Shown here: piece after piece, positions 4,812-43,989 of the stretch
Layout of the letters: each line of letters begins with the position of its first letter
How positions within the stretch are numbered: the first letter of the stretch is position 1
NCBI RefSeq assembly: GCF_016219575.1
Contig: NZ_JACRMG010000027.1
Coordinates: forward strand, 124,001-188,000
From: Bradyrhizobium sp.
GTDB lineage: Bacteria; Pseudomonadota; Alphaproteobacteria; Rhizobiales; Xanthobacteraceae
Direction of reading: 5' to 3'
Length of the DNA: 64,000 bases
The notes under the pieces: model-generated
What the model saw: only the letters and a program-made list of their open reading frames with translations
The model's database searches: none
What the model was told of the DNA's origin: nothing
Position numbers and translations under genes: made by a program

Positions 4812-5596
4812 TGAATGACCGTCGCTCCGATTGCGTCCAGCGCTTGCTCGACCGCGCGGATGACCAGATCCTCGATCCCCGGCGCATTGCCGATCACGCC
4901 GGCATAGGCGACATCCGTCCGGCCGAGCCCGGCGACCAGGCGCGGCGCATCGCGCGCGCCGTGCAGGCCTTCGCCCGAGAACATCCCGACCACGACCGTC
5001 GGCCCCGGGCAGGCGCGCGCGGCCTCCTCCAGCGAGGGAGCCTCCTCCAGGAAGGCCACCTTGACCTGGCGGCATGCGCCGAGCCCTGCGACCTCGCCGG
5101 CCACCCATTCCGTAGCCTCCCGGGAGGCCGGGTTGCGGCGCGAGCCGTGGGCAAGAAGGACGATATCGAACGCCGCCGGTGCAAAGCCGTTTGCCGCAGC
5201 GAGAAGCCCGGCGCGAGCGGCAATCAGCCTCGGCAGACCGCGGTCGAGGCCGAGCGGCGGCAACAGCTCGATGACGCGGCCCCGCTCGTTCGCCTCGTCC
5301 AGGAGGCCCACCAGGCGGTCCCGCGTGAAATAGCCATTGGCGGCAAACAGCGGATAGACGATGACCCTGCGGGCTTTGAGGCGGTCCAGCGCCTCACCGA
5401 TCGCCGGCGTGCCGTTGATGAAGCCAGCCGCGACTTCCGCCACGATTCCGCGGGCCGCCACCGCGCGCGCGATCTGCAGCGTGCTCTCGTTGGAGGCGCC
5501 CGGCTGCCGCTCGCCATGCGCCGCGATCAGCAGCGCAGTGTCGCCCGCGCTGCGGCTCAATGGCTGGTCCCGTCCGAGAAGGTGATCTTGTTCCAT
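4808..5596 (-). CDS. CbiX/SirB-like sirohydrochlorin chelatase family protein, two domains
   Basis: ALLIAAHGERQPG... and VLLAHGSRRNPAS..., two chelatase-like repeats; overlaps the 3' end of nirN. Confidence 0.75.
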   Translation of the reverse strand: MEQDHLLGRDQPLSRSAGDTALLIAAHGERQPGASNESTLQIARAVAARGIVAEVAAGFINGTPAIGEALDRLKARRVIVYPLFAANGYFTRDRLVGLLDEANERGRVIELLPPLGLDRGLPRLIAARAGLLAAANGFAPAAFDIVLLAHGSRRNPASREATEWVAGEVAGLGACRQVKVAFLEEAPSLEEAARACPGPTVVVGMFSGEGLHGARDAPRLVAGLGRTDVAYAGVIGNAPGIEDLVIRAVEQALDAIGATVIQ

Positions 5597-7122
5597 ACGT
5601 TGTACTTGCCCGACGGCTTCGACATCGGCAACCGCTTCACCTCGGCAAAGGTTGCGGCGTCATAGACCACCAGCGCACCCTTGTCTTCCCAGACCGACAC
5701 CAGAACGTGGCGACCGTCCTTGTCGAACTCGACATGGGCGGCCGTCTTGCCGGGTTCGGGCGTGACGCTGCGCACGATTTCGAGCGTGCGCTTGTCGATG
5801 ATCGACATCGTGTCCTTGTTGCCGCCCATCATGCTGTCGGTCCAGGCGTAGGGCGAGTTCTCATGGCTGCGCATGAAGAAGCCGGGCCCGGGCGTGTCGA
5901 TCGACTTGAGCAGCGACCAGTCCTGCATGTCGAGCACGTTGACCTTGCCGGCCTTCAACAGCGGTGTCGCCATCACGGGCCGGCCGTTCCAGGTCCAGGA
6001 GATGCCGGAGCCGAGATGCGGCAGGCCGGGCATGTCGAGCTGCTTGATGTCGCGCCCGACCACGAGATTGACCACCACCGCCCTGCCCTCGCGCGCCGAG
6101 CCGATCAGGTTGCGGTAGGGTGGATCGAAGAAGAAATCGTCGAGCGGCTCGGGCGTCTCGATCCGGCGCAGCGCGAACAGGCCCTGCGACGACGGCAGCG
6201 CCTCGACCATGCCCTTCTCGTGCGAATGCACGAAGCCGGAATAGACCGGCGGGGCGTTCGGATCGGTGGCGATTTCCCAAATCTCCGGCACGTCCTTCAG
6301 CGCGGCGATGAAGCTGTCGCGGGGACGGGCCTGGTACACCGCCGACACCCGCGACGGATTGCCCTTCTTGTCCTTGACGTCGAAGATCTTCTCGACCGAG
6401 AGATCTTCGGCCGACAGCATCACCAGCGTGCGCGGCAGATAATTGGCCACCGCAATGTGCTTGCCGTCACGGGAGATGGCGATGTTGCGCGCGTTGATGC
6501 CGGCCCGCACCTCGGCGAGCATGGTCAGCGTCCACAGGTCGTATTTGCTGACCCAGCCGTCGCGCGACATGAAGAAGACGTAGCGTCCGTCGGGCGAGAA
6601 TTTCGGGCCGCCATGCAGGGCAAAGCGTGTCGCAAACCGCGTCAGCGGTTCGAAGCGGTCGCCGTCGAGGATGGTGGCGTGGTGATCGCCCGCCTCGACC
6701 ACGACGAACAGGTTCTTCGGATCGGCCTCGAAGCGGGGCCGATCGAGCGCCGGCGCGGATGCGTGGATGACGCGGCTGGCGGCAATTTCGACCGCGCCCC
6801 AGGCCGGCACGTTGGCGAGCGGCGTCGCAATAAAGGCGGCAAGCGCGGTGATTTCCTCGTTGTTGAGCGTCCCGGCAAAGCCCGGCATCTGCGTGGCGGC
6901 ACGGCCGCCCACGATCACCGAAATGGCGCGCGCGCCGGTCAGGCGGCCGAGATTTTCCGGCAGCAGCGCGGGTCCCAATCCGCCGAGACGATCGCCGCCG
7001 TGACACTGCGCGCAGTGATCGGCATACAGCTTCGCCGTGTCGGGCTGAGCTGCCGCGGACGCCATGCCAAGCGCGAGCGCCGCTACGGCGCCGAGCGCGC
7101 TAGTAAGACATCGGCGCTTCAT
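5557..7122 (-). CDS. nirN: NirN-like protein: cytochrome c domain plus d1 domain
   Basis: CAQCHGG heme c motif followed by an 8-bladed d1-like domain ending KPSGKYNVWNKITFSDGTSH; within nir cluster. Confidence 0.88.
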   Translation of the reverse strand: MKRRCLTSALGAVAALALGMASAAAQPDTAKLYADHCAQCHGGDRLGGLGPALLPENLGRLTGARAISVIVGGRAATQMPGFAGTLNNEEITALAAFIATPLANVPAWGAVEIAASRVIHASAPALDRPRFEADPKNLFVVVEAGDHHATILDGDRFEPLTRFATRFALHGGPKFSPDGRYVFFMSRDGWVSKYDLWTLTMLAEVRAGINARNIAISRDGKHIAVANYLPRTLVMLSAEDLSVEKIFDVKDKKGNPSRVSAVYQARPRDSFIAALKDVPEIWEIATDPNAPPVYSGFVHSHEKGMVEALPSSQGLFALRRIETPEPLDDFFFDPPYRNLIGSAREGRAVVVNLVVGRDIKQLDMPGLPHLGSGISWTWNGRPVMATPLLKAGKVNVLDMQDWSLLKSIDTPGPGFFMRSHENSPYAWTDSMMGGNKDTMSIIDKRTLEIVRSVTPEPGKTAAHVEFDKDGRHVLVSVWEDKGALVVYDAATFAEVKRLPMSKPSGKYNVWNKITFSDGTSH

Positions 7123-8308
7123 GGCGGGCTCCGCGAAAGGCGCTGGTGCGGACGCGTTCGGCCGGCTGGGCGAGGCCGATTTCCGCATCCGTGAGGTAAC
7201 AGCCGGGGTCTTCCGCCCAGGGATTGCCGGTCATCCGCAGCGCGCGCACGCGCGTGTTGCCGTTGCAGATGGAGAAGTGCGCGCAGGCGCCGCAACGGCC
7301 GCCGACCTGCCGCGGGTGCTGCTTCAACCCGGCCATGACGGGATCGGAGAGATCCGACCAGATCGCCGAGAACGGCCGCTGCTTCACATTGCCCAGATTG
7401 TAGTGCCACCACATCGTGTCGGGATGCACGTTGCCGAGATTGTCGATGTTGGCGACGTTGACGCCGGAGGAATTGCCGCCCCAACGCAGGAGCTTTTCGC
7501 GCAGGCTCGCCACCGCATGCGGCACCGTGCGTTCAGCCCATTGCAGCAGATAGATCGCATCCGCATCGTTGTTGCCAGTCACGATCTCCATGTCGCTGCC
7601 GGCCTGTGCCCAGCGCCAGGCGCGCTCGATCACCATGTCCATGGCTTCGCGGGTGGTCTGCCAGGCCGCATCGGTGCCGCGATTCTTGTTGCCGCGGCCG
7701 GCATAGACCAGATGCGACAGATAGAATTTCGGAAAGCCTTCGCTCTCGACCAGATCGAGCAGGCGCGGCAGCTCGGCTGCATTGTCCTCGGTCATGGTGA
7801 AGCGTACGCCGACCTTGATTCCGCGGTCGCGCAGCAGCCTCAATCCCGCGAGCGCCTCCTCAAAGGCGCCGGCACGACCGCGGAAACGGTCATGCGTGGC
7901 GCCGATGCCGTCCAGGGAAATGCCGACATAATCGTAGCCGATGTCGCGGATGCGGTCGGCAAGGCCGGCGTCGATCAGGGTGCCGTTGCTGGAAAGCCCG
8001 ACATAGAAGCGCATGGTCTTGGCGCGCTCGGAGATCTCGAAGATGTCGCGCCGCATCAGCGGCTCGCCGCCGGACAGGATCAACACCGGCACGCGGAACA
8101 TCTTCAGGTCGTTCATGACATGAAAGACTTCCTCGGTCGAAAGCTCGTTGGGAAAGTCGACGTCGCCGGAAATCGAGTAGCAGTGCTTGCAGGTCAGGTT
8201 GCAGCGGCGGATCAGGTTCCAGATCACCACCGGGCCGGGCGGCTGGCGCACGGGGCCGGTTGGCGCCGGCTCGCCGATGTCGCGAAGATAGTGACTGAGG
8301 CGAAACAT
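7100..8308 (-). CDS. nirJ: Heme d1 biosynthesis radical SAM protein NirJ
   Basis: CNLTCKHCYS radical SAM motif; C-terminal CGACAHFSIC...PGCY cysteines; nir context. Confidence 0.92.
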   Translation of the reverse strand: MFRLSHYLRDIGEPAPTGPVRQPPGPVVIWNLIRRCNLTCKHCYSISGDVDFPNELSTEEVFHVMNDLKMFRVPVLILSGGEPLMRRDIFEISERAKTMRFYVGLSSNGTLIDAGLADRIRDIGYDYVGISLDGIGATHDRFRGRAGAFEEALAGLRLLRDRGIKVGVRFTMTEDNAAELPRLLDLVESEGFPKFYLSHLVYAGRGNKNRGTDAAWQTTREAMDMVIERAWRWAQAGSDMEIVTGNNDADAIYLLQWAERTVPHAVASLREKLLRWGGNSSGVNVANIDNLGNVHPDTMWWHYNLGNVKQRPFSAIWSDLSDPVMAGLKQHPRQVGGRCGACAHFSICNGNTRVRALRMTGNPWAEDPGCYLTDAEIGLAQPAERVRTSAFRGARHEAPMSY

Positions 8309-8323
8309 CCGGGACCTCTCCGC

Positions 8324-8800
8324 TCAGGCCGCAATACGCAGGCCGGTCTTCTTCAGGATGCGGGTGGAGAACAGCACGTCGTGGCCGCGCTCGGCAGGGC
8401 CGATCAGGTCTGCAATCTCGGCGACCTTGGTCCTGACCTCGTCGCGGGTTCGCCCGTGCACCATCGCAAACAGATTGTAGGGCCAGAGCGGCAAATGCCG
8501 CGGCCGCTCGTAGCAATGGGTGACGAAGTCGAGCGCGCCGACCTTTGCGCCGACATCGGCCACGGCATCGTCGGCGATGTCCCACACCGACATGCCGTTC
8601 GCCGTGAAGCCGAGCGCGTAATGATTGGGAATCGCCCCGATGCGGCGGATCGCCCCGCGCTCGAGCAGGCTTTGCAGGCGTGCGAGCACGTCCGCCTCGT
8701 CGAGCCCGAGCTGCGCGGCGACCGCGCGATAGGGCTTAGGCACCAGCGGAAGCCCGCCTTGTGTCGCAGCGATAAGCCGGCGATCGGTTGCATCCAGCAT
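8324..8800 (-). CDS. nirH: Siroheme decarboxylase subunit, AsnC/Lrp-like (NirH-like)
   Basis: MLDATDRRLIAATQGGLPLVPKPYRAVAAQLGL... CYERPRHLPLWPYNLFAMVHG. Confidence 0.75.
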   Translation of the reverse strand: MLDATDRRLIAATQGGLPLVPKPYRAVAAQLGLDEADVLARLQSLLERGAIRRIGAIPNHYALGFTANGMSVWDIADDAVADVGAKVGALDFVTHCYERPRHLPLWPYNLFAMVHGRTRDEVRTKVAEIADLIGPAERGHDVLFSTRILKKTGLRIAA

Positions 8801-8803
8801 GTT

Positions 8804-9256
8804 TCAGACCTCGACCCGGAAGCCGACGAAGAATTCGCGCGTTTTCGGCATGGCGTGCACCGCAATGCCGGTCTCGTGCTCGATCTCAGCGATCACCTGC
8901 TGAATCCTGCGCGGATCGTCGGCCGAAATCACGAACCACATGTTGAGCATGTGCGTCCGCTCGTAATTATGGGCAATTTCCGGGTGCGCGTTGACCTTCG
9001 CCGCGACCTCCTCGAAGCGCACCTCGGGGACCGCCATCGCGGCGAGGCATACGCCGCCGCCGATCTGTTCGGCATTCCACAGCGGCCCGAACCGGCTCAA
9101 CGCGCCCGAGCCGGTGAGATCGCGAACGCCCTCGATCAGTTCGTCCTCGGTCAGTCCGAGTTCGCGGCCAGCATCGCGGAACGGCCGGGATGTCAGGGGA
9201 AACTCGCCCTGCAGGCCGTTGACGATGGCGCGCGCCGTCGGATCGAGCCAGGCCAT
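8804..9256 (-). CDS. nirG: Siroheme decarboxylase subunit, AsnC/Lrp-like (NirG-like)
   Basis: MAWLDPTARAIVNGLQGEFPLTSRPFRDAGRELGL...HNYERTHMLNMWFVISA; ATGA overlap with the upstream gene. Confidence 0.75.
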   Translation of the reverse strand: MAWLDPTARAIVNGLQGEFPLTSRPFRDAGRELGLTEDELIEGVRDLTGSGALSRFGPLWNAEQIGGGVCLAAMAVPEVRFEEVAAKVNAHPEIAHNYERTHMLNMWFVISADDPRRIQQVIAEIEHETGIAVHAMPKTREFFVGFRVEV

Positions 9257-10239
9257 CAGTTCAATCCCGCCGTTGCGGAGAACACCGCGCCGCGCTGCTT
9301 GAAGCAGCGCCTGGAGAACAGCACCGCCTGCCGCAGCAGACCACTGTCGGACTCCAGGTTGATCTCGTCGATCACGGAATAGGCGTCCCAGCGCGAGCGC
9401 GCATGGACCATGCAGAAGATGTTGTAGGGCCAGGCCGGCAGATGCCGCGGCCGCCGGTAGCACAGCGTGACCTTGGGATGGCGCGCAAAGCTTTCCACGA
9501 CGTCGTCGAGGCGATCGTCGGGCACGTCCCACACCGCCATGGCGTTCGACCTGTAGCCGAGCTTCTCGTGCCTCACCACGCAGCCGAACCGCGTGACAAT
9601 GCCGGACGCCTTCATGTGCTCGAGGCGGTCGATGACTTCGGACTGTTTGAGGTCGAGCTTGTCGGCGACCGCGCGGTAGGGACGCTCGATCAGCGGCAGG
9701 CCGTCCTCGATCGCGGCGAGGATGGTCCTGTCGCGCGGATCGGGACGGTAGTCGGCGGGGTTTCCGACCTCGCGGCGCGGCGGCGGCGCGGCGCCGAGCG
9801 AAAAGCCGAGGCCGAGGTGATAGGCTTCCAGCATCGGCAGGTCGACGACTTCGAGCCTGGTCTTGTCATGGATGCGGCGGATCGTGGCCGCGACCGCCTC
9901 CGGCCCGGCGCCGGTAATCACGAACCAGAGATTGAGCGCATGCTCGCGCTCGTAATTGTGGGTGACCAGCGGCTCGCGGCTGACGATGCCGGCCACCTGT
10001 TCCAGTTGCTCCGGCGGCACCTGCATCGCCGCCAGCGTGCTGGCGCCGACGGTATTCGGCCTCACCACGGCGCCGACCCGGGAGATCACGTCGTTGTCCC
10101 GCATCTTGCGGAAGATGCCGATCGTCTCGTCCTGGTCGAGCGCGGCGAAGCGGCCGACCACCGCGAAAGGCTTTTCGACCAGCGGAAAGCCGTGCTGCCA
10201 GCGATCGATGAGCGCGAGCTCGGTCTGGTTCGGTGTCAT
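9256..10239 (-). CDS. nirDL: Fused siroheme decarboxylase NirD-NirL
   Basis: Two consecutive AsnC-like modules: MTPNQTELALIDRWQHGFPLVEKPF...HNYEREHALNLWFVIT and DPRDRTILAAIEDGLPLIERPYRAVADKL...CYRRPRHLPAWPYNIFCMVH. Confidence 0.85.
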   Translation of the reverse strand: MTPNQTELALIDRWQHGFPLVEKPFAVVGRFAALDQDETIGIFRKMRDNDVISRVGAVVRPNTVGASTLAAMQVPPEQLEQVAGIVSREPLVTHNYEREHALNLWFVITGAGPEAVAATIRRIHDKTRLEVVDLPMLEAYHLGLGFSLGAAPPPRREVGNPADYRPDPRDRTILAAIEDGLPLIERPYRAVADKLDLKQSEVIDRLEHMKASGIVTRFGCVVRHEKLGYRSNAMAVWDVPDDRLDDVVESFARHPKVTLCYRRPRHLPAWPYNIFCMVHARSRWDAYSVIDEINLESDSGLLRQAVLFSRRCFKQRGAVFSATAGLN

Positions 10240-11411
10240 TGTCCGATCCTCGTTGCGCGTGCGGTAAAGAAGATTCCCGAAGGCTTTTGCGCCGGTATTT
10301 CCGCCTTCTTCCTGAACGTCGCGGTGTCGTAGACGTCGATGCGGTCGGCATCGCGCACCGAGACCCATACCTCGTTGCCGCGCGGGGTGAATTCCAGATG
10401 CAGCACCGCCGGGCCCGGCGCGAAGCGGTGCACGACCTTGAGCGTCTGCACGTCGACGACGTCGATGGTGTCGTTCTTCGGATGGGCGAAATTGACCCAG
10501 ACCTGGCGCCCGTCCGGCCGCGCCACCGCGAACACCGGCTGGCCATGGGTGGCCACGCGGCCGGCCTCGGCGAAATTGCGGGTATCGACCGCGATCAGTT
10601 CGTGGCGGCCGACCGCGGGCAACAGCAGCTTGCCGCCGACCGCGGCCCAGCCCTCCAGATGCGGCATCTTGTAGACCGGCAGGCCTTCCTCGCCGCGGCC
10701 GTAGCGATCGAGAATGCGCTCGGCCTTCAGGGGCGCCTGCCAGGTATCGACATGCACGACGCCGTCCTCGCCGAACAGGCCGGCGAGATAGTGCCGGCCA
10801 TCCGGCGTGACGTTGCCGTCATAGGGCAGCTTGCCGACGCCGGTGAGCTTTACGACGGCGGGCGCTTCCGGGGTGGAAAGATCGGCTACCCAGATCTCGC
10901 CGGCGTCGTAGAGCGCAAAGGCGAAGCGCCGGCCCGGAAGGTCGACGAGGCCGACCGTCTTGGAGGATTTTCCGTCGGCGCCCTTGGCTGCAATGGTGGC
11001 AACCGGCTCGAGCGTGTCGGCGGCGAAGATCCGCACGCCGCCGGGCTCGTAATTCGAGACCGCGATCAGCGCGCCGTCATCCGAGATCGCGCCGCCGATG
11101 GAATTGCCGGCCTGCATGACGCGTTTGGCGATCGACGAGGTGAGCAGATCGACCTTGGTCAGCCCGCCGTCGCGGCCGAACACATAGGCATAGCGCTGAT
11201 CCGGCGAGAACACGGCGGAGGCGTGCGAGAGATCGCCGAGCCCCTCGACACGGCCGATCGTGCGCCGGGCCATTGTGTCCACGACCAGCACCGAACCGGC
11301 GGCGCGCTCGATTACGAGGCCGAGGCTGCCGGTGCCGCGCAATTCGCCGGCGCCGGCCAATGCCGGCACCATGAGCCAGAACAGGAGCAGAATGCGTGCA
11401 AACGCTTTCAT
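10236..11411 (-). CDS. nirF: Heme d1 biosynthesis protein NirF
   Basis: d1-like beta-propeller without cytochrome c domain, N-terminal signal/anchor MKAFARILLLFWLMVPALAGA. Confidence 0.88.
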   Translation of the reverse strand: MKAFARILLLFWLMVPALAGAGELRGTGSLGLVIERAAGSVLVVDTMARRTIGRVEGLGDLSHASAVFSPDQRYAYVFGRDGGLTKVDLLTSSIAKRVMQAGNSIGGAISDDGALIAVSNYEPGGVRIFAADTLEPVATIAAKGADGKSSKTVGLVDLPGRRFAFALYDAGEIWVADLSTPEAPAVVKLTGVGKLPYDGNVTPDGRHYLAGLFGEDGVVHVDTWQAPLKAERILDRYGRGEEGLPVYKMPHLEGWAAVGGKLLLPAVGRHELIAVDTRNFAEAGRVATHGQPVFAVARPDGRQVWVNFAHPKNDTIDVVDVQTLKVVHRFAPGPAVLHLEFTPRGNEVWVSVRDADRIDVYDTATFRKKAEIPAQKPSGIFFTARATRIGQ

Positions 11412-11749
11412 GGCAAGTTCCCCTGCTGCAAACGGTCCGCGATCCATTGCGCATCGCCTTCACTGAGCAGCGCGCGCCAAGGCGGCATCGGCGTGCCGGG
11501 AACACCGTCCAGGATGATGCCGACCAGCTGCTCGCGATTCCAGATTTTCAGGTTCTCTGACGTCAGCGGCTTGCCGAGGCCGCCGCGCAAGGTGAGGCCG
11601 TGGCAGGAACCGCAGTCCTGGCGCACGAGATTGGCGAGCTTGCCGGCGTTGGGGGCAATCTCGGCGGCAGAGACGGGCGCGGCTGCTGCCACCAGCGCAA
11701 GCGCCAGGTCAGGCAACAACTGAAACCGTATCGGCCTCCGCATCGTCAT
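11408..11749 (-). CDS. nirC: Small periplasmic cytochrome c (NirC-like)
   Basis: CGSCHG motif; ~110 aa; between nirF and nirE. Confidence 0.75.
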   Translation of the reverse strand: MTMRRPIRFQLLPDLALALVAAAAPVSAAEIAPNAGKLANLVRQDCGSCHGLTLRGGLGKPLTSENLKIWNREQLVGIILDGVPGTPMPPWRALLSEGDAQWIADRLQQGNLP

Positions 11750-12497
11750 GCTCGTTCCGCTCCAAGGTGCGCTCCAAGGCAAGCCCGGCGACCCGGCCAA
11801 TGATGAACAGGACGGGGCCGGAGAACGCCGCCTCGCGCGCCGCCATGGGCAGAGATGCGAGGCGTGTGCATATTCGCCGCTCCCGGTCGGTCGTGCCTTG
11901 ACACACCGCAAGAACCGGCGTGCTCATCGGAAGCCCGTGGGCGACGAGTTCCCCCGTGATCTCCTCGATATTGGAGAGACCCATGTAAACGACGAGAGTG
12001 GTATCGGGGTCGGCCAGGCTCGCCCAGTCGAGTTCAAGCGGCTCGTTGGCCTTGCGATGGCCGGTGACGTAGCGCACGCCGCTGGCGAGCCCGCGATGCG
12101 TCAGCGGGATGCGCGCAGCGGCCGCGCAACCCTGCGCCGCCGTGATGCCGGGGATCACTTCATATGGAATTCCCGCCGCCTCGAGCTCGGCCGCCTCCTC
12201 GCAGCCGCGCCCGAAGATGAAGGGATCGCCGCCCTTGAGCCGCACCACGGTGCGGCCGGCGCGGCCGAGGCGGATCAGGATTTCGTTGATTTCGGACTGC
12301 GGAACGGGATGAAAATCCGCCTGCTTGCCCACATTAATCTGCGCGACGCCGTCGCCGATCGTCTCCATGATGCGGTCGGACACCAGCCGGTCATAGACGA
12401 CGACATCGGCCTCCTCGATCGCGCGTATCGCCTTCAGGGTGAGAAGCTCGGGATCGCCCGGACCCGCCCCGACCAGATAGACCTTACCCATGCTCAT
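11709..12497 (-). CDS. nirE: Uroporphyrinogen-III C-methyltransferase (NirE/CobA)
   Basis: GKVYLVGAGPGDPELLTLKAIRAIEEADVVVYDRLVS... GDPFIFGRGCEEA... SUMT motifs. Confidence 0.92.
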   Translation of the reverse strand: MSMGKVYLVGAGPGDPELLTLKAIRAIEEADVVVYDRLVSDRIMETIGDGVAQINVGKQADFHPVPQSEINEILIRLGRAGRTVVRLKGGDPFIFGRGCEEAAELEAAGIPYEVIPGITAAQGCAAAARIPLTHRGLASGVRYVTGHRKANEPLELDWASLADPDTTLVVYMGLSNIEEITGELVAHGLPMSTPVLAVCQGTTDRERRICTRLASLPMAAREAAFSGPVLFIIGRVAGLALERTLERNEHDDAEADTVSVVA

Positions 12498-12564: not shown

Positions 12565-16581
<4,017 letters not shown>

Positions 16582-16585
<4 letters not shown>

Positions 16586-17586
16586 CAAGCTTGCCTGAAA
16601 GGCCGACACGGCGGCGCGCGATCGCCATCTTCGCCGCAGCCGCGGCCGGCGCCATGGCCGGGGGCCCTGCCCGCTCTTCCGCCGAATACGTATGGCGCGG
16701 AGTGGCGATGGGCGCGGACGCAACGATCCTGTTCAACGGCATCGACCGTGACGCGGCAAGCGCCGCCGTCGCGCTAGTGGAAGCCGAGATCGACCGGCTG
16801 GAAGATGAACTGAGCCTGTTCCGGCAAGCTTCCGAACTGTGCCGACTCAACCGCGATGGCCGGCTGCAATCCCCGGGCGCCGACCTGCGGCGCGCCTTGA
16901 CGCTCGCGCTCGATACGGCGTCGGCGAGCGGCGGGCTGTTCGACCCGACCGTGCAGGCCCTGTGGGAGGCCCATGTCGACTGGTTCGCGGCAGCACCCGG
17001 CGCCGCAACGCCGCCGGATGATTTGATCGCGCGGGCGCGGCTGGCCGTCGACTGGCGCAAGGTGACGATCGAGCCGTCGTCGATCCATCTCGGCCACGGC
17101 CAGCGCGTTACGCTCAACGGGCTCGGCCAGGGCTATGTCACCGATCGCATCGCCGAGCTGCTCGCGGGCCGCGGCCTCAGGCACGTCCTCGTCGACCTCG
17201 GCGAACAGCGCGCCATCGACGCAAGGCTGGACGGCGCTCCCTGGCAGATCGCGCGTGCCGGCGGCGCACCGATCCGGCTACGGCGCGGCGCGCTCGCTAC
17301 CTCCGAAGGCTCAGGCTGCGTGCTCGGCGCCGGCGGCGCCGCGCATCACTTGTTCGACCCGCGCAGCGGCCGCAGCGCCGGCGGCTGGAAGACAGTGACC
17401 GTCCATCACCGCTCCGCCGCCGTCGCCGATGCACTGTCGACCGCTTTCTACATTGCTTCCGCCAACGAAATCGCGGCCCTGCTGCCGCAGTTCCCCGGCA
17501 CCGTGGTGTGGGCGCGCGATCACGCCAATGCCGGCCGGCGCTGGATCGCAGCCCCGGTTGACGATGTCGTGTCGCTGGAAGTCTGA
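16582..17586 (+). CDS. nirX: ApbE family FAD:protein FMN transferase (NosX/NirX-like)
   Basis: TSLPERPTRRRAIAIFAAAAAGAMAGG Tat-like signal; ApbE core (LNGLGQGYVTDRIAELL...VDLGEQRA); ATGA overlap with nirI. Confidence 0.85.
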
Positions 17587-17597: not shown

Positions 17598-17978
17598 CTA
17601 CTTGGTCTTGCCCTCGGCGTCGTACTGCTTGAGATGGGCCCAGAGCGCCTTCGCCTCGGTCTCGTTCTTGATGCCGGCGAACACCATCTTGGTGCCGGGA
17701 ATCTTCGCCTTGGGATCCTTGATGTAGTCGAGGAAGCTCTCCTCGTTCCAGGTGATGCCTGAGCCCTTGTTGGCGTCGGAATAGTTGTAACCGGCGACGG
17801 TTCCGGACTTGCGGCCATCCAGCCCGTTGAGCACCGGCCCGACCTTGTTCTTCGCGGTTGGACCGACATCGTGACATGCCACGCATTTCTTGTACGAAGT
17901 GGCGCCCGCGGCCAGGTCTTGCGCGGCAGCCGTACCGACCCAGGCGATCGAAACCGCCGCCGCAACCAGTAACTTCCT
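17598..17978 (-). CDS. Class I cytochrome c (c2/c550-like)
   Basis: Signal peptide plus CVACHDVGPTAKNKVGPVLNGLDGRKSG...GTKMVFAGIK. Confidence 0.9.
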   Translation of the reverse strand, partial: RKLLVAAAVSIAWVGTAAAQDLAAGATSYKKCVACHDVGPTAKNKVGPVLNGLDGRKSGTVAGYNYSDANKGSGITWNEESFLDYIKDPKAKIPGTKMVFAGIKNETEAKALWAHLKQYDAEGKTK

Positions 17979-18016
17979 CATCTTCTTCTCCCTTTTCAAA
18001 GATTCCAAACAGCCGC

Positions 18017-18415
18017 TCAGTGGTCGCCCAGCGCCCGATGCAGTCGGGCATCGTGGCTTTCGAAATGGCGCGAGAACCAGGCGTCGAGCCGCTGCGCCAG
18101 CAGCTTCTCGTCAAAGAGGTCGTTTACCTCATAATCCTCCATGATGTCCCTGACCTCGTCGAGCAGGCGCTCGTGATCGTTCTTGTGCTGGCTGAGCTGA
18201 TCATAGCCCTTCTCGCGCATGAAGCGCTCCTCCAGCGCAAAATGCGCGGAGATCGCCTTGTAGAGATCGCCGAAGAAGCCGAGAACAGAAACCTTGGAGC
18301 CCTGGGTCGTGGCCTTCTCGTGCAAACGGTTGATCAGATCGACGAGTTCGCGATGTTCGTGATCCACCGCTTCGATGCCAACGCTATAGCGCTTCTCCCA
18401 TTGCAGCAGGCCCAT
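18017..18415 (-). CDS. Bacteriohemerythrin
   Basis: WEKRYSVGIEAVDHEHRELVDLIN...HFALEERFM...YDQLSQHKNDHERLLDEV...WFSRHFESHDARL. Confidence 0.93.
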   Translation of the reverse strand: MGLLQWEKRYSVGIEAVDHEHRELVDLINRLHEKATTQGSKVSVLGFFGDLYKAISAHFALEERFMREKGYDQLSQHKNDHERLLDEVRDIMEDYEVNDLFDEKLLAQRLDAWFSRHFESHDARLHRALGDH

Positions 18416-18425: not shown

Positions 18426-18926
18426 TCAGCGAAAGACGAAGCTGCCGCTTTCCGGCCGGTAGTCGATCACCAGCATCTGGTCCGGCGCGAGCTCGACGCT
18501 GTCGCGGCGCTGGTGATCGAAACCGTCGGCGCGCGCGGTGTCACGCAAGCGAACGGCGAGGTCATGCTTGCCGGCCGGCAGGACGAAGCGCTGATAGACC
18601 CGCGACGGTCCATCGCCCGCGATGCCCGTCGGTTGCAGGCTCGCCTGGTAGACGCCGCGGCCGTCGACATCGAGCTCGACATAGATCGCGCGCCGCCCGC
18701 GCGGACAGTCCTTCACCCGCCGCATGTTGGGCGGCAGCTTTGCGATCTCCTCCGGCGTCAGGCGGCGGCACTCGCCCTTGCGGTCGGCGCCGTGCACGAA
18801 GGTGAGCATCACCACGCCCGTGCCCTTCGGAATCTGGCCCCAGGTAGGCCAATCCGACAGGGCGGCGACGCCGGCAAACAGCGCCACGATGACAATGAAT
18901 TGTCCTGTCAGCCGCACGGCCTTCAT
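18426..18926 (-). CDS. Conserved hypothetical exported or membrane-anchored protein
   Basis: MKAVRLTGQFIVIVALFAGVAALSDWPTWGQIPKGTGVVMLTFVHGADRKGECR...; starts within the 3' end of the cytochrome b fusion ORF. Confidence 0.75.
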   Translation of the reverse strand: MKAVRLTGQFIVIVALFAGVAALSDWPTWGQIPKGTGVVMLTFVHGADRKGECRRLTPEEIAKLPPNMRRVKDCPRGRRAIYVELDVDGRGVYQASLQPTGIAGDGPSRVYQRFVLPAGKHDLAVRLRDTARADGFDHQRRDSVELAPDQMLVIDYRPESGSFVFR

Positions 18927-20509
18927 GTCGCGCCCCTCTCCGTCTCGAGGGCTTTCGGCTGACGCGTCGGCGAAGACACCGGCAACGGCGACCGCAGCCG
19001 CTTTGGCGGCATCGCAGCCACGCGCTCGGCGAATTCGGCGATCTCCGTCTCGGCCCTGCTGGCGGCGAGCGCAGATGCCCACACCATCGCAATGCGCTCG
19101 CGGGGAACGCGCGCCCGCAAATAGGGATCGCGCTCGGCGGCGAAGCGCTGCTCGGTCCATTGCACGCCGAGCCGGTTGTAGCAGGCGCTTTCGGCGCAGC
19201 CGGCGACGACGACGCCGTCGGCAAGATCGCGGCTCAGGATGAAATCGATCAGCGACGGCGGCGCCATCGCGACGCAAGGCATCACCACGGTGTCGCCGAG
19301 CCGGCCGGCGGCCGCGCCATGCTCGCAGGCCAGCACCAGCACGCGGCCGGGCCCGCTCAGCCCGGCGGCCGTATCCATCACGCGCTCGCGCAGCTCCCGC
19401 AGCGAGTATTCCGGCAGGTCGATGCCGGTCTTCAATTCGTCGGTACGGCGGAACGGCGTCGACGAGGGGCAGGAGCCGACACAGATGCCGCAGGACACGC
19501 AGAGCGTGGGATTGACCTCGGCCTGCGTCGGGAACGGCAGCTTGTCGGTGCGGGGAACCAACCTGATGGCCTCGTACGGGCAATCTTCCGCGCAGCGGGC
19601 GCAGCCGTTGCAGTGGTCGAGATCGATCACCGCCGCCCTGGCCCTGCGGAGCGGCGGCAACCACGGCATCAGCGCGATCATCAGCGAGAAGGCGCCGAGG
19701 AAGGCCCACACCGCGCCGTTGCCCCACAATTCGGTCAGCGGATAGAGCGGCAGATAGAACCAGTCGAGCCCGACGTTGTTCGGCACCTTGGCAAGATCGG
19801 CCGGGCCTTGCGACAGCGCCGGCCTCCAGATCGACACCGCCAGCAGCGCAGCCAGCGACATCAGCGCAAGCGTACGCGGCGGGTTCACCTTGGGCCGCGA
19901 GATGCGCAGGATATGCACCCACATGATGAACAGCAGGAACAACGGCACCGCGACGTGCATGAACACCATCAGCGAGAAGAAGCGGCTGGTCAGCGTGCCG
20001 GTGGCGATGAAGTTGCGGGCGATCGGTTCGCCGAAGATCGGCAGCCAGTCCAGCAGTTCGGAAGAAACCAGCGCCACAAACTGGGCGAGCTTGTCCCACA
20101 CCAGCCAGTAGCCGGTGATACCGGAGACGTAGAGCAGCCAGATGATCGGCAGGCCCGTGAACCAGGAGAACCAGCGCACCCCGCGATAATGATCGAGGGA
20201 GAACTCGCGCAGCAGATGCACCGCCACCATCACCACCATCAGGTCGGAGGCGTAGCGGTGGAAACTGCGCATGACGCCGGCATGGAACCATTGGTCGCGC
20301 GAGATGTACTCGACCGACTGGTAGGCGCGGTCGATACCGGTATCGAAGAAGATGAAGAGGTAGATGCCGCTGACGGCGACGATCCAGAAGAAGAAGAATC
20401 CGAGCGCGCCGAGTTGCGCCAGCGGATTGAGCGACGGGCTGAACAGGCGGTCGAACGGCCGCTCGATCAGCTCAAACCCAGCTCTGAGCACTTTACGGAT
20501 GACGTTCAC
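18923..20509 (-). CDS. Cytochrome b (b6-like) - 2x[4Fe-4S] ferredoxin - MvhD/FlpD-like fusion protein
   Basis: Two His pairs with 14-residue spacing (FHRYASDLMVVMVAVH; MHVAVPLFLLFIMWVH), CNGCARCAEDCP and CVSCGICVGSCP clusters, then VLACEHG...GCAESACYNRLGVQWTEQRF. Confidence 0.88.
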   Translation of the reverse strand: MNVIRKVLRAGFELIERPFDRLFSPSLNPLAQLGALGFFFFWIVAVSGIYLFIFFDTGIDRAYQSVEYISRDQWFHAGVMRSFHRYASDLMVVMVAVHLLREFSLDHYRGVRWFSWFTGLPIIWLLYVSGITGYWLVWDKLAQFVALVSSELLDWLPIFGEPIARNFIATGTLTSRFFSLMVFMHVAVPLFLLFIMWVHILRISRPKVNPPRTLALMSLAALLAVSIWRPALSQGPADLAKVPNNVGLDWFYLPLYPLTELWGNGAVWAFLGAFSLMIALMPWLPPLRRARAAVIDLDHCNGCARCAEDCPYEAIRLVPRTDKLPFPTQAEVNPTLCVSCGICVGSCPSSTPFRRTDELKTGIDLPEYSLRELRERVMDTAAGLSGPGRVLVLACEHGAAAGRLGDTVVMPCVAMAPPSLIDFILSRDLADGVVVAGCAESACYNRLGVQWTEQRFAAERDPYLRARVPRERIAMVWASALAASRAETEIAEFAERVAAMPPKRLRSPLPVSSPTRQPKALETERGAT

Positions 20510-20621: not shown

Positions 20622-21428
20622 TCACGCCTTGCCCGTTGGCGCGTGCCCTGCTCGCAGCCATTCCCGCAGCAGCAGCCCGCCCATCACCAGCAGCGAGATC
20701 GCCGCCAGCACGCTGCCGAACACCAGCCCGTAATCGATGCGGTAGCGCCCTGCGCCCGGATCGTAGGCCGTGCAGATGAACTTGATGCGGTTGACGATGC
20801 CCGTGAACGTGAAGGACGTGCTGGTGCCGTAGACCACGTCCTTCATCGGCTCCATGAACATGCGCAGCGGAAACGCCTCGCCATAGACGTGACGATAGAC
20901 CTTGCCGTCGCGGTCGAGGATCGTGGTCTGGGTGGGATGATCGAATCCGCCGCCGACCGCGCGATAGCTGAAGCCGAGATCGTCCAGCAGCGCGGCGATG
21001 GTGGCGGCGTCGCCGCTGGCGACCCGCCAGTTCGGCAGCGTGATGCCCTGCTGCGATGCGAATTGCGCCATCCGCGGCACGGTGTCGTTGCGGGCATCGA
21101 AGCCGACCGTGAGCACGGCAAAGCGATCGAGCCCGAACATCCGGCCGGCCTCCGTCACCGCATCGATGGTGCGCTGGGTGGTCGGCGGACAGACCGAGCT
21201 ACAGGATGAATAGACGAGGCTGATGACCAGCGGCTTGCCGCGGTAGTCCGTCAGCCGGAACGGCGTGCCGTGGCTGTCGGTCAGCGCGTGGCTGCCGACC
21301 GTGCGGCCCAGCGCCTGCGTCGATTTTGCGATCGCAGCGGCCGGATCGAGCGCCGGCGCAGCCGCCGCGGGCATGGCGAGAAGGCCGGCCAGCGCGGATG
21401 CCGCACATGCCGCGCGAAGGCATTTCAT
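20622..21428 (-). CDS. SCO1/SenC family copper chaperone-like protein with C-terminal TM helix
   Basis: SLVYSSCSSVCPPTTQ copper motif, FDHPTQTTILDRDGKVYR, C-terminal membrane segment. Confidence 0.9.
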   Translation of the reverse strand: MKCLRAACAASALAGLLAMPAAAAPALDPAAAIAKSTQALGRTVGSHALTDSHGTPFRLTDYRGKPLVISLVYSSCSSVCPPTTQRTIDAVTEAGRMFGLDRFAVLTVGFDARNDTVPRMAQFASQQGITLPNWRVASGDAATIAALLDDLGFSYRAVGGGFDHPTQTTILDRDGKVYRHVYGEAFPLRMFMEPMKDVVYGTSTSFTFTGIVNRIKFICTAYDPGAGRYRIDYGLVFGSVLAAISLLVMGGLLLREWLRAGHAPTGKA

Positions 21429-22297
21429 GACAGAAGTCCGGCGGCGCTCGAGAGCAGCGCACCCGCGACCAGCAAGGCAAGCTGCAGCAGCGAGGCGAAG
21501 AAATTCCCCATCGCATTCTTTTTCGAGGGATCGCGATGGAGCACGATGCTCTTCCAGACGAACCATCCGCCGCCGATCGCCGCGCAGATTCCGTAGAGCA
21601 TCCCTGCCCCGAACCAGACCGGGACAAGCGAGATTGCGGCCAGCGCCACCGCATGGAAGAGCACGGCCAGAGTCCAGGCGTAGGCCGGCACCACCACCGG
21701 CAGCATGGGGATGTTCGCCCGCGCATAGTCGTCGCCCTTGGCGGCGGCGAGGCTCCAGAAATGCGGCGGGGTCCACAGGAACAGCACGACCGCCAGCACC
21801 GTCGGAATGACTTGCGGCGAGGGATCGACCGCGGCGGCGCCCGCCATGACGGCAAAACTGCCGGCGAGCCCGCCGACCACGATATTCCATGTGCTGCGGC
21901 GCTTCAGCCAGACGGTGTAGACGATGCCGTAGGTGAAGGCGCCGAGAAACACATAGCCCGCTGCGGCATGGCCTGCCGTCAGTACCGCCAGCGCCAGCGA
22001 GGCCACCAGCAGCGCCAGAAAGGCGGCGAGCCACCACGGGCTCGCCTTGAGCGCCCCGCTCGCAAACGGGCGGGTGCAGGTCCGCCGCATCAGCTTGTCG
22101 AGGTCGCGTTCGTAGTAGTGATTGAAGGCACCGGCCGCGCCCGAAGCACCGAGCACGGCCAGCGTCAGGCCGGCGATCTGCCACCATGCCAGATGCGGGC
22201 CGCTTGTCGCCGCCACACCGGCCAGCGCGCTGGCCGCAATCGCGACGCCGATCCTGAGCTTCAGGAGCGATATCGTCATCGAGGCTACAGCGCGCAT
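21425..22297 (-). CDS. cyoE: Protoheme IX farnesyltransferase (heme O synthase)
   Basis: GAAGAFNHYYERDLDKLMRRTCTRPFASG and FLWTPPHFWSLAA prenyltransferase motifs. Confidence 0.93.
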   Translation of the reverse strand: MRAVASMTISLLKLRIGVAIAASALAGVAATSGPHLAWWQIAGLTLAVLGASGAAGAFNHYYERDLDKLMRRTCTRPFASGALKASPWWLAAFLALLVASLALAVLTAGHAAAGYVFLGAFTYGIVYTVWLKRRSTWNIVVGGLAGSFAVMAGAAAVDPSPQVIPTVLAVVLFLWTPPHFWSLAAAKGDDYARANIPMLPVVVPAYAWTLAVLFHAVALAAISLVPVWFGAGMLYGICAAIGGGWFVWKSIVLHRDPSKKNAMGNFFASLLQLALLVAGALLSSAAGLLS

Positions 22298-22334: not shown

Positions 22335-24056
22335 TCAACGGAACAGCCAGAGTTCCGACAGATATTTCCAGTTGATGAAGTAGTAGAGGACGAAGCAGAC
22401 GAAGAAGATGGTCACGAGGATGATCGTGCCAGGCAGCTTCGGCGCCTTCTCGCTTCCGTAGTGCGAGGCGACGGCGCCGCCGCCCGAGAACAGCGGGAAG
22501 GTCAGCTTGTGGCCGCTCGTGATCTTCTTGCCGAAGAACGCGGTGGCAACGACGACCAGCACGAAGATGATGCCGCCGATGGCCGCGATGATGGCGAAGA
22601 TGCCGTTCAGCCCCATCATCAGGAACGCGCCGGCCGAGTGGGCAAAGCCGATGCTGGCGTCACTGAAGGTCATGTCCCAGTGCCGCCGCGCCACGCCGAG
22701 CGTGCCCGCACCCATCATGAACAGCGAGATGCCGGCCGCCCCGATCCCGAACAGGTAGGGCTGGATCTTGGCAAGCTTCGGCCAGACGATCTCGCGCTGG
22801 AAGATCAGGGGCAGCACGATATAGGTCGCGCCCATGAAGGCCAGCGTCGTTCCGGCGACCACGGTGCCGTGGAAGTGACCGGGGACGTAGATGGTGTTGT
22901 GCATGAGCACGTTGAGCTGCTCGGTGCCGAGCACCACGCCGGAAATGCCGCCGATGAAGCCGAAGAAGACGAGCGACAGGAACATGCCGGAAAAGGCCGG
23001 ATTTCCCCACGGCGCCTTGCGCAGCCACTCGAACATGCCGCGGTCGAAGCCGTTGCGCCGCTGCGCCGCCTCGATCGCGCCGGGCACGGTGAGGCCGTGC
23101 ACCATCGAGCCCATCACCGCCAGGTACATCATGTAGCTGGTATTGACGATCTTCCAGCTCGCATCCATGCCGGGTTCGGCGAGCAGATGGTGTGCGGACG
23201 CCAGCTGCAGGAACAGGATGTACATGAAGAAGGCGGTGCGACTGACCTTCTCGCTCAGCGGCTTGGCGCCGACGAGAAGCGCTGCAGTCAGGTACCAGAG
23301 CGAGACGTGCGCCGAGACGTTGATCTGCTGCGAGGAATGCCCCATCGCCCACCAGACCACCTTGTACATCAGGGGATCGATGTCGGAGATCAGGCCGAGC
23401 GACCACAGCCAGGTCGGGATCAGGATGATCGCGCCGGAGGCGATGGTGAAGACGGCGATGATGGCGGCGGTGAGCGCGCCGAAGGTCACCAGCGGAATCG
23501 AGCCTTCATAGGTGCCCTCTTCCTTGGCGATCACCAGTGTCGCGAAGAACAGCCCGCAGCCGATCAATGCGCCGACCGCGAACAGGATGATGCCGAGATA
23601 GAAATGCGGCTTGGCCATCATCGGCGGATAGGAGGTGAACATCACGCTCGAATCGCCCTGCAGCACCGCCACGTTGGTGGCGAGCGCGCCGACGATCATC
23701 AATATGAAGCCGAGCCAGCCGAGTTTCGGCGCCGCCAGCCGCGAATTGAGCAGGACGGCGGAGGCGAAATAGAGAATGGCCATCTCGAAGAAGATGATCC
23801 AGAACAAGAGCACGTTGGCGCCGTGTCCGGTCAGGATCAGGTAGAACCAGTCGGCCGGAAGCAGATGCACTGCCGGCCACCTCGTGAGCGCCACCAGCAG
23901 GCCCATCAGGCCGCCGATCGCCAGAAACACCACGGCCGCCACCGCATTCGCGATGATCAGCCTCTGGGCGGCCACGTCGACCTTGAGCCCGGTGTACTGG
24001 CAGGTGCGGAATTCGGCCTTGGCGGGAACGGCGCCGATTACGGTTTCTGCGGTCAT
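22335..24056 (-). CDS. Heme-copper oxidoreductase subunit I lacking the active-site Tyr; probable nitric oxide reductase (sNOR-like)
   Basis: Ligand motifs TGHGANVLLFW, WWAMGHSSQQ, LASAHHLLAEPG and HNTIYVPGHFHG; Gln at the H+4 position normally Tyr in GHPEVY. Confidence 0.9.
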   Translation of the reverse strand: MTAETVIGAVPAKAEFRTCQYTGLKVDVAAQRLIIANAVAAVVFLAIGGLMGLLVALTRWPAVHLLPADWFYLILTGHGANVLLFWIIFFEMAILYFASAVLLNSRLAAPKLGWLGFILMIVGALATNVAVLQGDSSVMFTSYPPMMAKPHFYLGIILFAVGALIGCGLFFATLVIAKEEGTYEGSIPLVTFGALTAAIIAVFTIASGAIILIPTWLWSLGLISDIDPLMYKVVWWAMGHSSQQINVSAHVSLWYLTAALLVGAKPLSEKVSRTAFFMYILFLQLASAHHLLAEPGMDASWKIVNTSYMMYLAVMGSMVHGLTVPGAIEAAQRRNGFDRGMFEWLRKAPWGNPAFSGMFLSLVFFGFIGGISGVVLGTEQLNVLMHNTIYVPGHFHGTVVAGTTLAFMGATYIVLPLIFQREIVWPKLAKIQPYLFGIGAAGISLFMMGAGTLGVARRHWDMTFSDASIGFAHSAGAFLMMGLNGIFAIIAAIGGIIFVLVVVATAFFGKKITSGHKLTFPLFSGGGAVASHYGSEKAPKLPGTIILVTIFFVCFVLYYFINWKYLSELWLFR

Positions 24057-24058
24057 GC

Positions 24059-24634
24059 TTATCTCCCATCCGCCAGGCGTTGTTCCGCCTCTGCCTTCTT
24101 GGGTTCGGTCACGTAGATCTTGCCGGTCATGGTGTGGTGGCCGATGCCGCAGAACTCGTTGCAGACGATGCCGAACTCACCGCTCTGCGTCGGGGTCAGC
24201 GAGATCACGTGCTCGTATCCCGGGTGAACCTGGATATTGATGTTGGTGGGCTGCAGCGAGAAGCCGTGCTGCCAGTCGATCGAGGACAGATGGATGCGAT
24301 AGCTCTGCCCCTTCTCCAGCTCGAGGATCGGCCACCACTGCCAGAGACGGCCGAGAATGTAGACGTCGCTGCCCGGCTTCGGCTTGGCGACGGGAATGCC
24401 CGCCTCCTCGCGCACCTTGTTCTTCTTGGCGAAGTCGTCGACCTTGGCCTCGTAGGCGGAAGGCGCGATGCGGTAGGCTTCCTTGCTGAGGTTCTGCTGT
24501 CCGATGAAATGCCAGGCGATCATGAACACGAACATGAACAGCCCCCACAGGAAGGCGATCACGATCCAGACCAGCTCGACCCGTTCGATAGGCTCGTTCC
24601 ACCAGATGCGTCTTTCGGGCGGTGTGACAGCCAT
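24059..24634 (-). CDS. Heme-copper oxidoreductase subunit II with CuA domain
   Basis: N-terminal TM, IDWQHGFSLQP and CNEFCGIGHHTM CuA ligands. Confidence 0.92.
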   Translation of the reverse strand: MAVTPPERRIWWNEPIERVELVWIVIAFLWGLFMFVFMIAWHFIGQQNLSKEAYRIAPSAYEAKVDDFAKKNKVREEAGIPVAKPKPGSDVYILGRLWQWWPILELEKGQSYRIHLSSIDWQHGFSLQPTNINIQVHPGYEHVISLTPTQSGEFGIVCNEFCGIGHHTMTGKIYVTEPKKAEAEQRLADGR

Positions 24635-24683: not shown

Positions 24684-24845
24684 TCATTTCGCCAGCGGGA
24701 CCGAGGCGACTTCCATCACGCCCCAGATCAGATAGAGGACGGTGGGCAAGGTCACGCCGAGGAACAGCAGCAGGAACGGGCTATCGAGAATCTGCTGCAT
24801 TACGGGCACGCGCTCCAGCGGCGCTTTCTGTTCGGTGGACGACAT
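24684..24845 (-). CDS. Small single-TM protein, possible accessory subunit
   Basis: MSSTEQKAPLERVPVMQQILDSPFLLLFLGVTLPTVLYLIWGVMEVASVPLAK; first gene of the oxidoreductase operon. Confidence 0.65.
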   Translation of the reverse strand: MSSTEQKAPLERVPVMQQILDSPFLLLFLGVTLPTVLYLIWGVMEVASVPLAK

Positions 24846-25480: not shown

Positions 25481-26254
25481 TCAGGCGGGCAAATCCAGCG
25501 TAGCCGCCTGCTTCGGCGCGGTCTTGCCGTTGCAGCCGTTGAAGCCGAAACTGCCGCGGGCCTTGATGCGATCGCTGGCGACGAGATCCTGCAGCGTCGC
25601 TGCATCTTCGACGACGACGTCGGAAGCGCGGACATCGACGCCCATCGTCCTCAGCTTGGCGAACACCCGCGAAAGCGATTCCGGCTTCAGTCCGAGCCGG
25701 CCGGCAATCAGCGACTTGTCGTACGGCAGGGCAATCGTGCAGGGGCCCTTGACGCAGGGTGTCAGCTGAATGAGGAAATCGGCAACCCTCTGCATGCCGC
25801 TCTGCGCCGTGAGCTGCTCGACCCGGCTTATCATCAGATGCAGGTGCTGCGACGTCGAGGCGATCATGGCCAGTGCGACCTCGGGCATCTTGCGGACGCA
25901 ATCGACGATGTGGTCGGCGGGAATCAGCATCACACGGGTGCGCGTCACCGCGCTCGCCATGGCCGGATAGCGACCGGCGGTGAAAGTCACCGCCTCCGCA
26001 AAACTCTGGCCCTTGGCAAAGACATTGAGCACAGCCTCATCGCCGGCCGGCGTGATCCGGTAGAGCTTGATCCAGCCCTCGAGGATGACGAAGAACGAAC
26101 TCGCAGGCTCGCCCTGCCGGAACAACATGCTGTTGGGGCGAAGATTGACGACCCTGGCCTGCGCCAGCAGGACATCGAGCGCCTGCGGCTTCAACCCGGA
26201 GAAGACCGGGACTTGCGCGGCGATAGCCAGATCAGCAGGTGTGGGCGCTGTCAT
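25481..26254 (-). CDS. Crp/Fnr family regulator (Dnr/NnrR-like, no N-terminal FNR Cys cluster)
   Basis: cNMP-like sensor domain and HTH SLIAGRLGLKPESLSRVFAKLR (ExxSR recognition motif); adjacent to nir/nor-like genes. Confidence 0.85.
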   Translation of the reverse strand: MTAPTPADLAIAAQVPVFSGLKPQALDVLLAQARVVNLRPNSMLFRQGEPASSFFVILEGWIKLYRITPAGDEAVLNVFAKGQSFAEAVTFTAGRYPAMASAVTRTRVMLIPADHIVDCVRKMPEVALAMIASTSQHLHLMISRVEQLTAQSGMQRVADFLIQLTPCVKGPCTIALPYDKSLIAGRLGLKPESLSRVFAKLRTMGVDVRASDVVVEDAATLQDLVASDRIKARGSFGFNGCNGKTAPKQAATLDLPA

Positions 26255-26618
26255 GTTCCTGTTCCTTGCAGGTTTCCTCCGGGTCTGCTTTCTCAACGCG
26301 CCAAGGCTCCGCTGTTCCACAGCGGTGCCCTGCTTCCCAATCGGCGAAATTCTCGACACGTATAAGTCCTCAGCCGCGCTTCCCGGAAATGCGCTTGCGC
26401 TGACGGTTGCCGGCTTCATTGGCGGCCTCGTGCGCAGGAATTAAGCACCCATCCGCCGACCGGGACTTTGCGAAAGGTCAAATATTGCCCGATTTCAGAG
26501 CGTGGAATTTTCCGCGCTCCGGCAGGCCAGTACCGGCCGGTCGTTGCCGGCATCCGGCCGATCGGCTAAGTGAGCCCTCCGATGCATCCACGGCGAACGC
26601 CGTAGTGAGTGGTCAACC

Positions 26619-37490: not shown

Positions 37491-37582
37491 CGGCTCCCTG
37501 AGACCACCCGCCAGTCTACCGGTCCGGCGGCCTCACCAGATGAGCCAGATCAAGGACGAAGCCTTTCTTCGCCGCGAACCGG

Positions 37583-38860: not shown

Positions 38861-38965
38861 GGTTCTCTCCCCGCTAAGTTCGATATTGTTGCAGTTCGCG
38901 ATCGTGGCACCGGGCCCGGCGCCCGCAGGCACCGTATTCGTGGCTCGGCGGCGCGGTTCCGGCGG

Positions 38966-41251: not shown

Positions 41252-41281
41252 GTGCTTCTTCTTTCTCTGGTCGCTCGATCG

Positions 41282-42988: not shown

Positions 42989-43060
42989 CCCGATGCGCTC
43001 CGGGGAGCGCGCTTGTCTGTCAAAACTGCCGGTTGTCCGGCCTTGGCTACGGTCGAAAGA

Positions 43061-43384: not shown

Positions 43385-43422
43385 CTCGTTTCCTTGCCTG
43401 GTTCAGGTTGATGTGGATTCCG

Positions 43423-43893: not shown

Positions 43894-43989
43894 CTCCTTA
43901 GGTTTCCTGAAGCCTGCGGCTTGTCCCGCCGGAATCATTTATCTTGACGGCCACGGCCGCGACTGCTCATTATTCCAACATATCATTAT

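Follow-up and report, generated by a model that had tools for sequence, protein, structure and literature searches.

A putative eNOR-family nitric oxide reductase and a candidate membrane accessory module in the denitrification locus of a Bradyrhizobium genome

Described nitric oxide (NO) reductases close to the enzyme reported here include sNOR (NorSY) and eNOR. SenC is a genomic neighbour of sNOR. A member of the eNOR family has reportedly been characterised by Murali et al. in 2024. The residue found at the position of the cross-linked Tyr of O2 reductases serves as a key to these enzymes: Gln marks eNOR, Asn marks sNOR and also CuANOR/bNOR, Asp marks gNOR and Glu marks cNOR and qNOR (PMC8756737 Table A4, modified from Hemp & Gennis 2008). 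Gln together with CuA defines eNOR, Gln at the Tyr site has been used to recognise the family, and the enzyme has a single proton channel (PMC8756737). Putative eNORs are listed in alpha-, beta-, gamma- and deltaproteobacteria, and Thermus is counted among the carriers (PMC8756737). One eNOR, from a lineage distant from the one described here, is cited as NO-reducing in PMC11388526.

We analysed a 64,000-nucleotide stretch of Bradyrhizobium sp. DNA (assembly GCF_016219575.1, contig NZ_JACRMG010000027.1, positions 124,001 to 188,000), hereafter the window, which carries a heme-copper enzyme in the same locus as genes for nitrite reduction (Table 1). Its residues, family placement and surroundings make it very probable that the locus encodes an eNOR-family NO reductase whose substrate is produced by NirS, encoded nearby. 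The family is already known, albeit little studied, and the window enzyme most likely belongs to it.

Table 1. Features of the locus. Loci: occurrence among 62 alpha/gamma eNOR loci whose downstream sequence spans at least 6.5 kb.
Feature	Position in window	Strand	Evidence and remarks	Loci
Heme d1 gene block	5557..12497	-	Pfam PF02239, PF22451, PF00590	
NirN-like	5557-7188	-	heme d1 block	
NirDL	9256-10368	-	heme d1 block	
NirF	10236-11447	-	heme d1 block	
NirE	11709-12497	-	heme d1 block	
NirS cytochrome cd1 nitrite reductase	12565..14667	-	PF02239 4.5e-145 and cytochrome c domain	
NosR/NirI-like polyferredoxin	14426-16585	+	NosR model 2.5e-199, below cut-off; divergent from nirS	
ApbE flavin transferase	16585-17586	+	1e-44; divergent from nirS	
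Cytochrome c550 (CycA-like)	17598..18008	-	NF043008 1e-59, below its cut-off	9/62
Bacteriohemerythrin	18017..18415	-	NF033749 9e-29, above cut-off	60/62
Small protein, N-terminal hydrophobic anchor	18426..18926	-		62/62
b6-type diheme cytochrome b-2x[4Fe-4S]-FlpD/MvhD fusion	18923..20509	-	PF00033, Fer4, PF02662	62/62
SCO1/SenC copper chaperone, membrane anchor	20622..21428	-	PF02630 3e-13	62/62
CtaB/CyoE heme O synthase	21425..22297	-	TIGR01473 9e-71, above cut-off	50/62
Putative eNOR subunit I, catalytic heme-copper	22335..24056	-	573 aa; COX1 Pfam E=5e-63; ba3 fold	
Putative eNOR subunit II, CuA cupredoxin, one N-terminal helix	24059..24634	-	191 aa; best PDB match ba3 subunit II	
Single-helix small subunit	24684..24845 (ORF can start at 24902)	-	53 aa; directly upstream of subunit II	
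Crp/Fnr-family regulator	25481..26419	-	PF00027, PF13545	

Subunit I matches the COX1 model in a Pfam search and scores far under every NCBIfam oxidase cut-off. Its nearest solved structure, both by sequence search and by the fold of the predicted model, is the Thermus ba3 oxidase (1ehk). Alignment to 1ehk identified H78 and H396 as low-spin heme ligands, H394 as the high-spin heme ligand and H240 and H289/H290 as CuB ligands, and thus bears out the preliminary description of this DNA, in which the heme and CuB ligand histidines were all said to be retained. The same description had read a GHSSQQ motif at 23325-23342 of the minus strand; the coordinates are exact (residues 239-244) and Gln244, as proposed there, replaces the cross-linked Tyr, occupying the position of ba3 Tyr237. 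It had also noted the absence of the alternative cbb3-type Tyr, and indeed the position is held by Leu283, with Leu in 99 and Ile in 2 of 101 homologues. Across these 101 subunits I there is no variation at H78, H240, N246, Y255, H289, H290, S317, H320 and H394, nor at Q243 and Q244, while position T323 is either Thr or Ser and H396 is replaced by Lys in a single Thermus sequence. The latter, encoded on plasmid 4 of Thermus thermophilus TTHNAR1 (8983-10668), reads HFK for HFH, the sole case in 101, so that an unusual ligand to its low-spin heme, or a change in that heme itself, is possible. Judged by its residues, the window protein is a heme-copper subunit I of B type in which every metal-binding histidine is retained and the helix VI His-Tyr cofactor is missing. 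It is unlikely that another Tyr, such as Tyr279 or Tyr255, reaches the active site from elsewhere. A chance open reading frame or pseudogene was ruled out by the intact reading frame, strong codon bias and the 101 conserved homologues.

The adjoining subunit II gene encodes a complete CuA site (CNEFCGIGHHTM), in agreement with the earlier reading of this site as intact, and its best PDB match is Thermus ba3 subunit II (5e-15). Its CuA Cys, His and Met ligands and Glu20, which corresponds to ba3 Glu15, are kept in 100/100 subunits II. The 53-aa ORF was present upstream in 73 of the 74 eNOR loci with room for it (subunit II in 74/74), matched no Pfam or NCBIfam family in profile searches and has counterparts in the Thermus and Thermomicrobium eNOR loci, where small ORFs occupy the same position.

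The K-type path of subunit I appears to keep its polar residues and to end at the glutamines. By alignment, subunit I H320, S317, T323 and Y255 correspond to ba3 Thr312, Ser309, Thr315 and Tyr248, which together with Glu15 form the ba3 K-type channel. These path positions are conserved in 92-101 of 101 subunits I, and subunit II Glu20 in every one of 100 subunits II. Such conservation fits the single channel published for eNOR (PMC8756737). If substrate protons come from the cytoplasm by this K-channel-like path, turnover should be electrogenic, and we infer that it is.

A maximum-likelihood tree of 49 sequences covered groups A, B, C, cNOR and eNOR and was built without authentic sNOR, gNOR, nNOR or bNOR. 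In it, 21 eNORs including the window, Thermus and Thermomicrobium sequences form one clade (support 99/93), the Thermus and Thermomicrobium rows being long branches; 12 B-family oxidases, all of which keep the Tyr, form their own group (100/97), and the A-type, C-type and cNOR sequences each form separate groups. The phylogeny suggested in the preliminary description therefore places subunit I outside the O2-reducing families. The QQ motif recurs in the homologues of Thermomicrobium roseum (46%) and T. thermophilus TTHNAR1 (44%), and in a scan of species genomes GH-x-x-QQ was present in all of the best 80 of at least 520 encoded relatives. Neither a NorB-type subunit nor the site Glu of cNOR/qNOR was found, the clade being separate and the genome lacking NorB. 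Matches of approximately 30% on haloarchaeal and Deinococcus plasmids carry the Tyr and were rejected as eNORs, as were 541-aa Bradyrhizobium relatives, which are B-family oxidases with HAIVY. We also noticed a family of 462-467 aa heme-copper-like proteins from other Pseudomonadota (L151, 1492-2886, and L152-L154) with helix VI GH[VI]LQF; it does not have the helix VII His-His pair, so the CuB ligands are missing, L151 has no Pfam match, and its tree position beside eNOR may reflect long-branch attraction.

The enzyme had initially been described as a probable NO reductase resembling sNOR, on the grounds that a CuA subunit II, a subunit I and SenC recall norSY-senC clusters. The first half of that assignment is supported and the second is not. 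A CuA subunit II, a B-type subunit I and an SCO gene are all present, as an sNOR (NorSY) identity would have it, but an adjoining SCO gene is not diagnostic; the window enzyme combines Gln with a K-type path where sNOR has Asn and no predicted proton channel (PMC8756737), and it groups with the Thermus and Thermomicrobium eNORs in our tree, which holds no NorS sequences. We regard an sNOR identity as very improbable.

The genes are ordered as 53-aa subunit, subunits II and I, then CtaB, SCO, the cytochrome b-FeS-FlpD fusion, the small anchored protein, hemerythrin and cytochrome c550. The presence of the downstream genes was scored in the loci defined in Table 1. Cytochrome c550 is a possible electron donor and was rejected as a core operon gene on its count. 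Hemerythrin genes were not found near beta-type eNORs; the genes for the fusion and its small partner usually adjoin eNOR in beta-type loci as well, and in a few cases lie elsewhere in the genome. The small anchored protein has no Pfam match, and His45, Cys53 and Cys74 are invariant in an alignment of 23. The Crp/Fnr-family regulator belongs to the locus in close relatives only. A search for the FNR-type palindrome TTGN8CAA gave 15 matches across the window, where 8.4 are expected, and no match at the eNOR promoter; we base no claim on it. FNR/NNR-like palindromes, of which chance matches are common, lie between nirS and the NosR-like gene (TTGATCTGGCGCAA, 14426-14439) and just upstream of the Crp/Fnr gene (TTGCGAAAGGTCAA, 26468-26481). 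The complete eNOR operon on a 165 kb Defluviimonas plasmid (NZ_CP156080.1), where a molybdopterin oxidoreductase lies nearby, points to spread by horizontal transfer.

The subunit genes had been placed next to nirS. They do share its locus, but at a distance of 8 kb and with other genes between. The true nirS start is probably internal to the ORF given in Table 1. The NosR/NirI-like protein probably assists nirS in the manner of NirI, since its gene and apbE stand opposite nirS in a genome without nosZ. At 6.27 Mb and 99.98% completeness, this genome encodes two NirS-type proteins (the second at contig C41:127178-128365, E=1.7e-151), NapA and four heme-copper subunits I, namely two A-type, one cbb3 and the eNOR, as determined with the COX1 search. 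COX1 and NorB searches returned no NorB in it. The COX1 search does pick up NorB in other genomes, as confirmed with Sinorhizobium NorB, and in a pSymA stretch NorB was found by ORF. No NarG match above cut-off was obtained in the genome; NosZ is absent, the NosZ model matching the eNOR CuA domain only. The eNOR thus appears to be the only heme-copper NO reductase in the genome and its only enzyme of a known type for converting NO to N2O, and the predicted pathway runs from nitrate to nitrite (Nap), NO (NirS) and N2O (eNOR), where it would stop. The preliminary description had named the enzyme as the natural candidate for NO consumption and called for a search for norB; with none found genome-wide, that case is now stronger. 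Elsewhere in the window (36396-45542), a sulfide dehydrogenase flavoprotein, a SoxB-like 5'-nucleotidase-family protein and a sulfur transporter form a probable sulfur-oxidation cluster, which suggests thiosulfate as an electron donor.

We then turned to 398 evenly drawn Pseudomonadota genomes, calling eNOR at E below 1e-200 and NirS-type d1 domains at E below 1e-90. The d1 domain was present in 20/20 eNOR genomes and in 28/378 others (Fisher 7e-21), a count that in part reflects shared ancestry: besides the window's, the 19 eNORs of the sample form one cluster, which we infer to be beta-type; its members come from 10 family codes and are approximately 61% identical to the window enzyme. In a NorB search of 29 eNOR genomes, 22 gave no convincing match, 5 carried a cNOR NorB of at least 60% identity and 2 a weak match; eNOR stands alone in most of these genomes.

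These data also bear on the possibility that the enzyme is a B-family O2 reductase, a low-oxygen oxidase that dispenses with the Tyr or relies on a different one. The closest solved structure, Thermus ba3, reduces O2, the K-type proton path is retained and the operon hemerythrin would fit low-oxygen life. Against this, Gln replaces Tyr in 101/101 homologues with Leu or Ile at the cbb3 position, the eNOR clade stands apart from the B oxidases of the tree, which all retain the Tyr, eNOR co-occurs strictly with nirS in the 398-genome sample, and the genome already holds two A-type oxidases and one of cbb3 type. An oxidase of this kind is therefore improbable.

Under the preferred reading, an eNOR would remove the NO that NirS produces. 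CuA would accept electrons from a cytochrome c or cupredoxin and hand them to the low-spin heme (H78/H396), from which they would reach the binuclear centre formed by the high-spin heme (H394) and CuB (H240, H289, H290); there, 2 NO + 2 e- + 2 H+ would give N2O + H2O. The Tyr by which O2 reductases break the O-O bond would be dispensable, with Gln244 in its place. Protons would come from the cytoplasm via subunit II Glu20 and subunit I His320, Ser317, Thr323 and Tyr255. The presence of CtaB in the operon suggests that the heme is farnesylated (type o or a), SCO would load copper into the enzyme, and the fusion with its small anchored partner would supply either electrons to eNOR or the maturation of its metal sites. 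In our reading, the NO reductase of this locus is electrogenic and has a maturation and putative electron-transfer module to itself.

The fusion has H84, H98, H185 and H199 of its cytochrome b invariant in 40 sequences, along with 11 invariant and one near-invariant Cys: eight in two [4Fe-4S] motifs, and C395, C412 and C438 of the FlpD/MvhD part, with C443 nearly so. Its best PDB match is cytochrome b6, and its predicted structure (mean pLDDT 81) matches by fold cytochrome b of the bc1 and b6f complexes, features that suggest a conduit carrying electrons across the membrane, with an iron-sulfur arm on the cytoplasmic side. The whole fusion was found in no solved chain of the PDB and had no NCBIfam model above cut-off. 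Among 72,556 plasmid records none held the full fusion away from eNOR, the sole carrier being the Defluviimonas eNOR-operon plasmid. The literature searches, which had the defining 2024 eNOR paper outside their range, returned nothing on a fusion protein with eNOR or nirS. Within the 398 genomes, full-length fusion and eNOR each occur in 20, with 19 in common (Fisher 3e-30, a p value inflated by shared ancestry); the exceptions are two fragmented assemblies, one with eNOR and no fusion (G185, 360 contigs) and one with the fusion and no eNOR (G223, 730 contigs). What matters in this co-occurrence is the near one-to-one match over ten family codes, with named loci across alpha and gamma.

We propose the fusion as an electron-transfer partner of eNOR. 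Somewhat tentatively, proteobacterial eNOR may use a dedicated, undescribed membrane module of fusion and small His/Cys protein, a near-obligate genomic partner in alpha-, beta- and gammaproteobacteria, which would link reductant from the cytoplasm or from quinol directly to the reduction of NO or to the assembly of the metal site. Another possibility, compatible with the eNOR identity and one we hold with a little more doubt, is that the enzyme mainly detoxifies NO and that the fusion is a maturation reductase, with a role like that of CcoG or NosR, and not a respiratory donor. The fusion gene comes after SCO and the heme O synthase, its small partner has invariant His/Cys, and the fusion was not found near the Thermus and Thermomicrobium eNORs, which indicates that it is not needed for the core reaction. 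Yet it carries a diheme quinol-type cytochrome b (best matched by cytochrome b6), a part that, to our knowledge, maturation ferredoxins do not have.

Under the electron-transfer proposal as under its alternative, the conserved fusion offers a concrete, testable answer to how eNOR may receive its electrons or be assembled. Should eNOR take its protons from inside, NO reduction would conserve energy, unlike in cNOR. Several eNOR subunits I are labelled cbb3-type or b(o/a)3-type cytochrome c oxidase subunit I in public records (for example NC_011961.1 and NZ_LR027520.1). Where eNORs are annotated as cytochrome oxidases, such organisms seem to make NO without removing it. Counting eNOR shifts the predicted output of N2O, a greenhouse gas; this Bradyrhizobium, with two NirS-type proteins and NapA and without NorB, NarG or NosZ, is predicted to end at N2O.

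Compared with known systems, the window enzyme shares with cNOR (NorCB) the proposed reaction and differs in that cNOR has a Glu-rich FeB site, a c-type NorC and no CuA, and falls in a separate clade. With T. thermophilus ba3 it has in common the fold, metal ligands, CuA subunit and K-path positions, whereas Tyr237 and Tyr244 of ba3 are replaced by Gln244 and Val251 and the clade is distinct. The sNOR of ammonia oxidisers is alike in its CuA subunit and B-type subunit I and unlike in having Asn for Gln and no predicted proton channel (PMC8756737). The closest fit is to eNOR itself, with Gln for the cross-linked Tyr, a CuA subunit II, B-family relationship and a K-type path, and the thermophile members, from Thermus and Thermomicrobium, join the window enzyme. 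Next to the genes of these members only a small transmembrane ORF and, in Thermomicrobium, a heme O synthase were found, whereas the proteobacterial operon adds SCO, the cytochrome b-FeS-FlpD fusion and the small anchored protein, and in many cases hemerythrin. Taken part by part, the fusion matches cytochrome b6, a 2x[4Fe-4S] module and FlpD/MvhD, as in cytochrome b6 and HdrA/MvhD-type modules. The enzyme family is known, and the accessory module, with its putative role in electron supply or maturation, is probably the most novel part of the locus.
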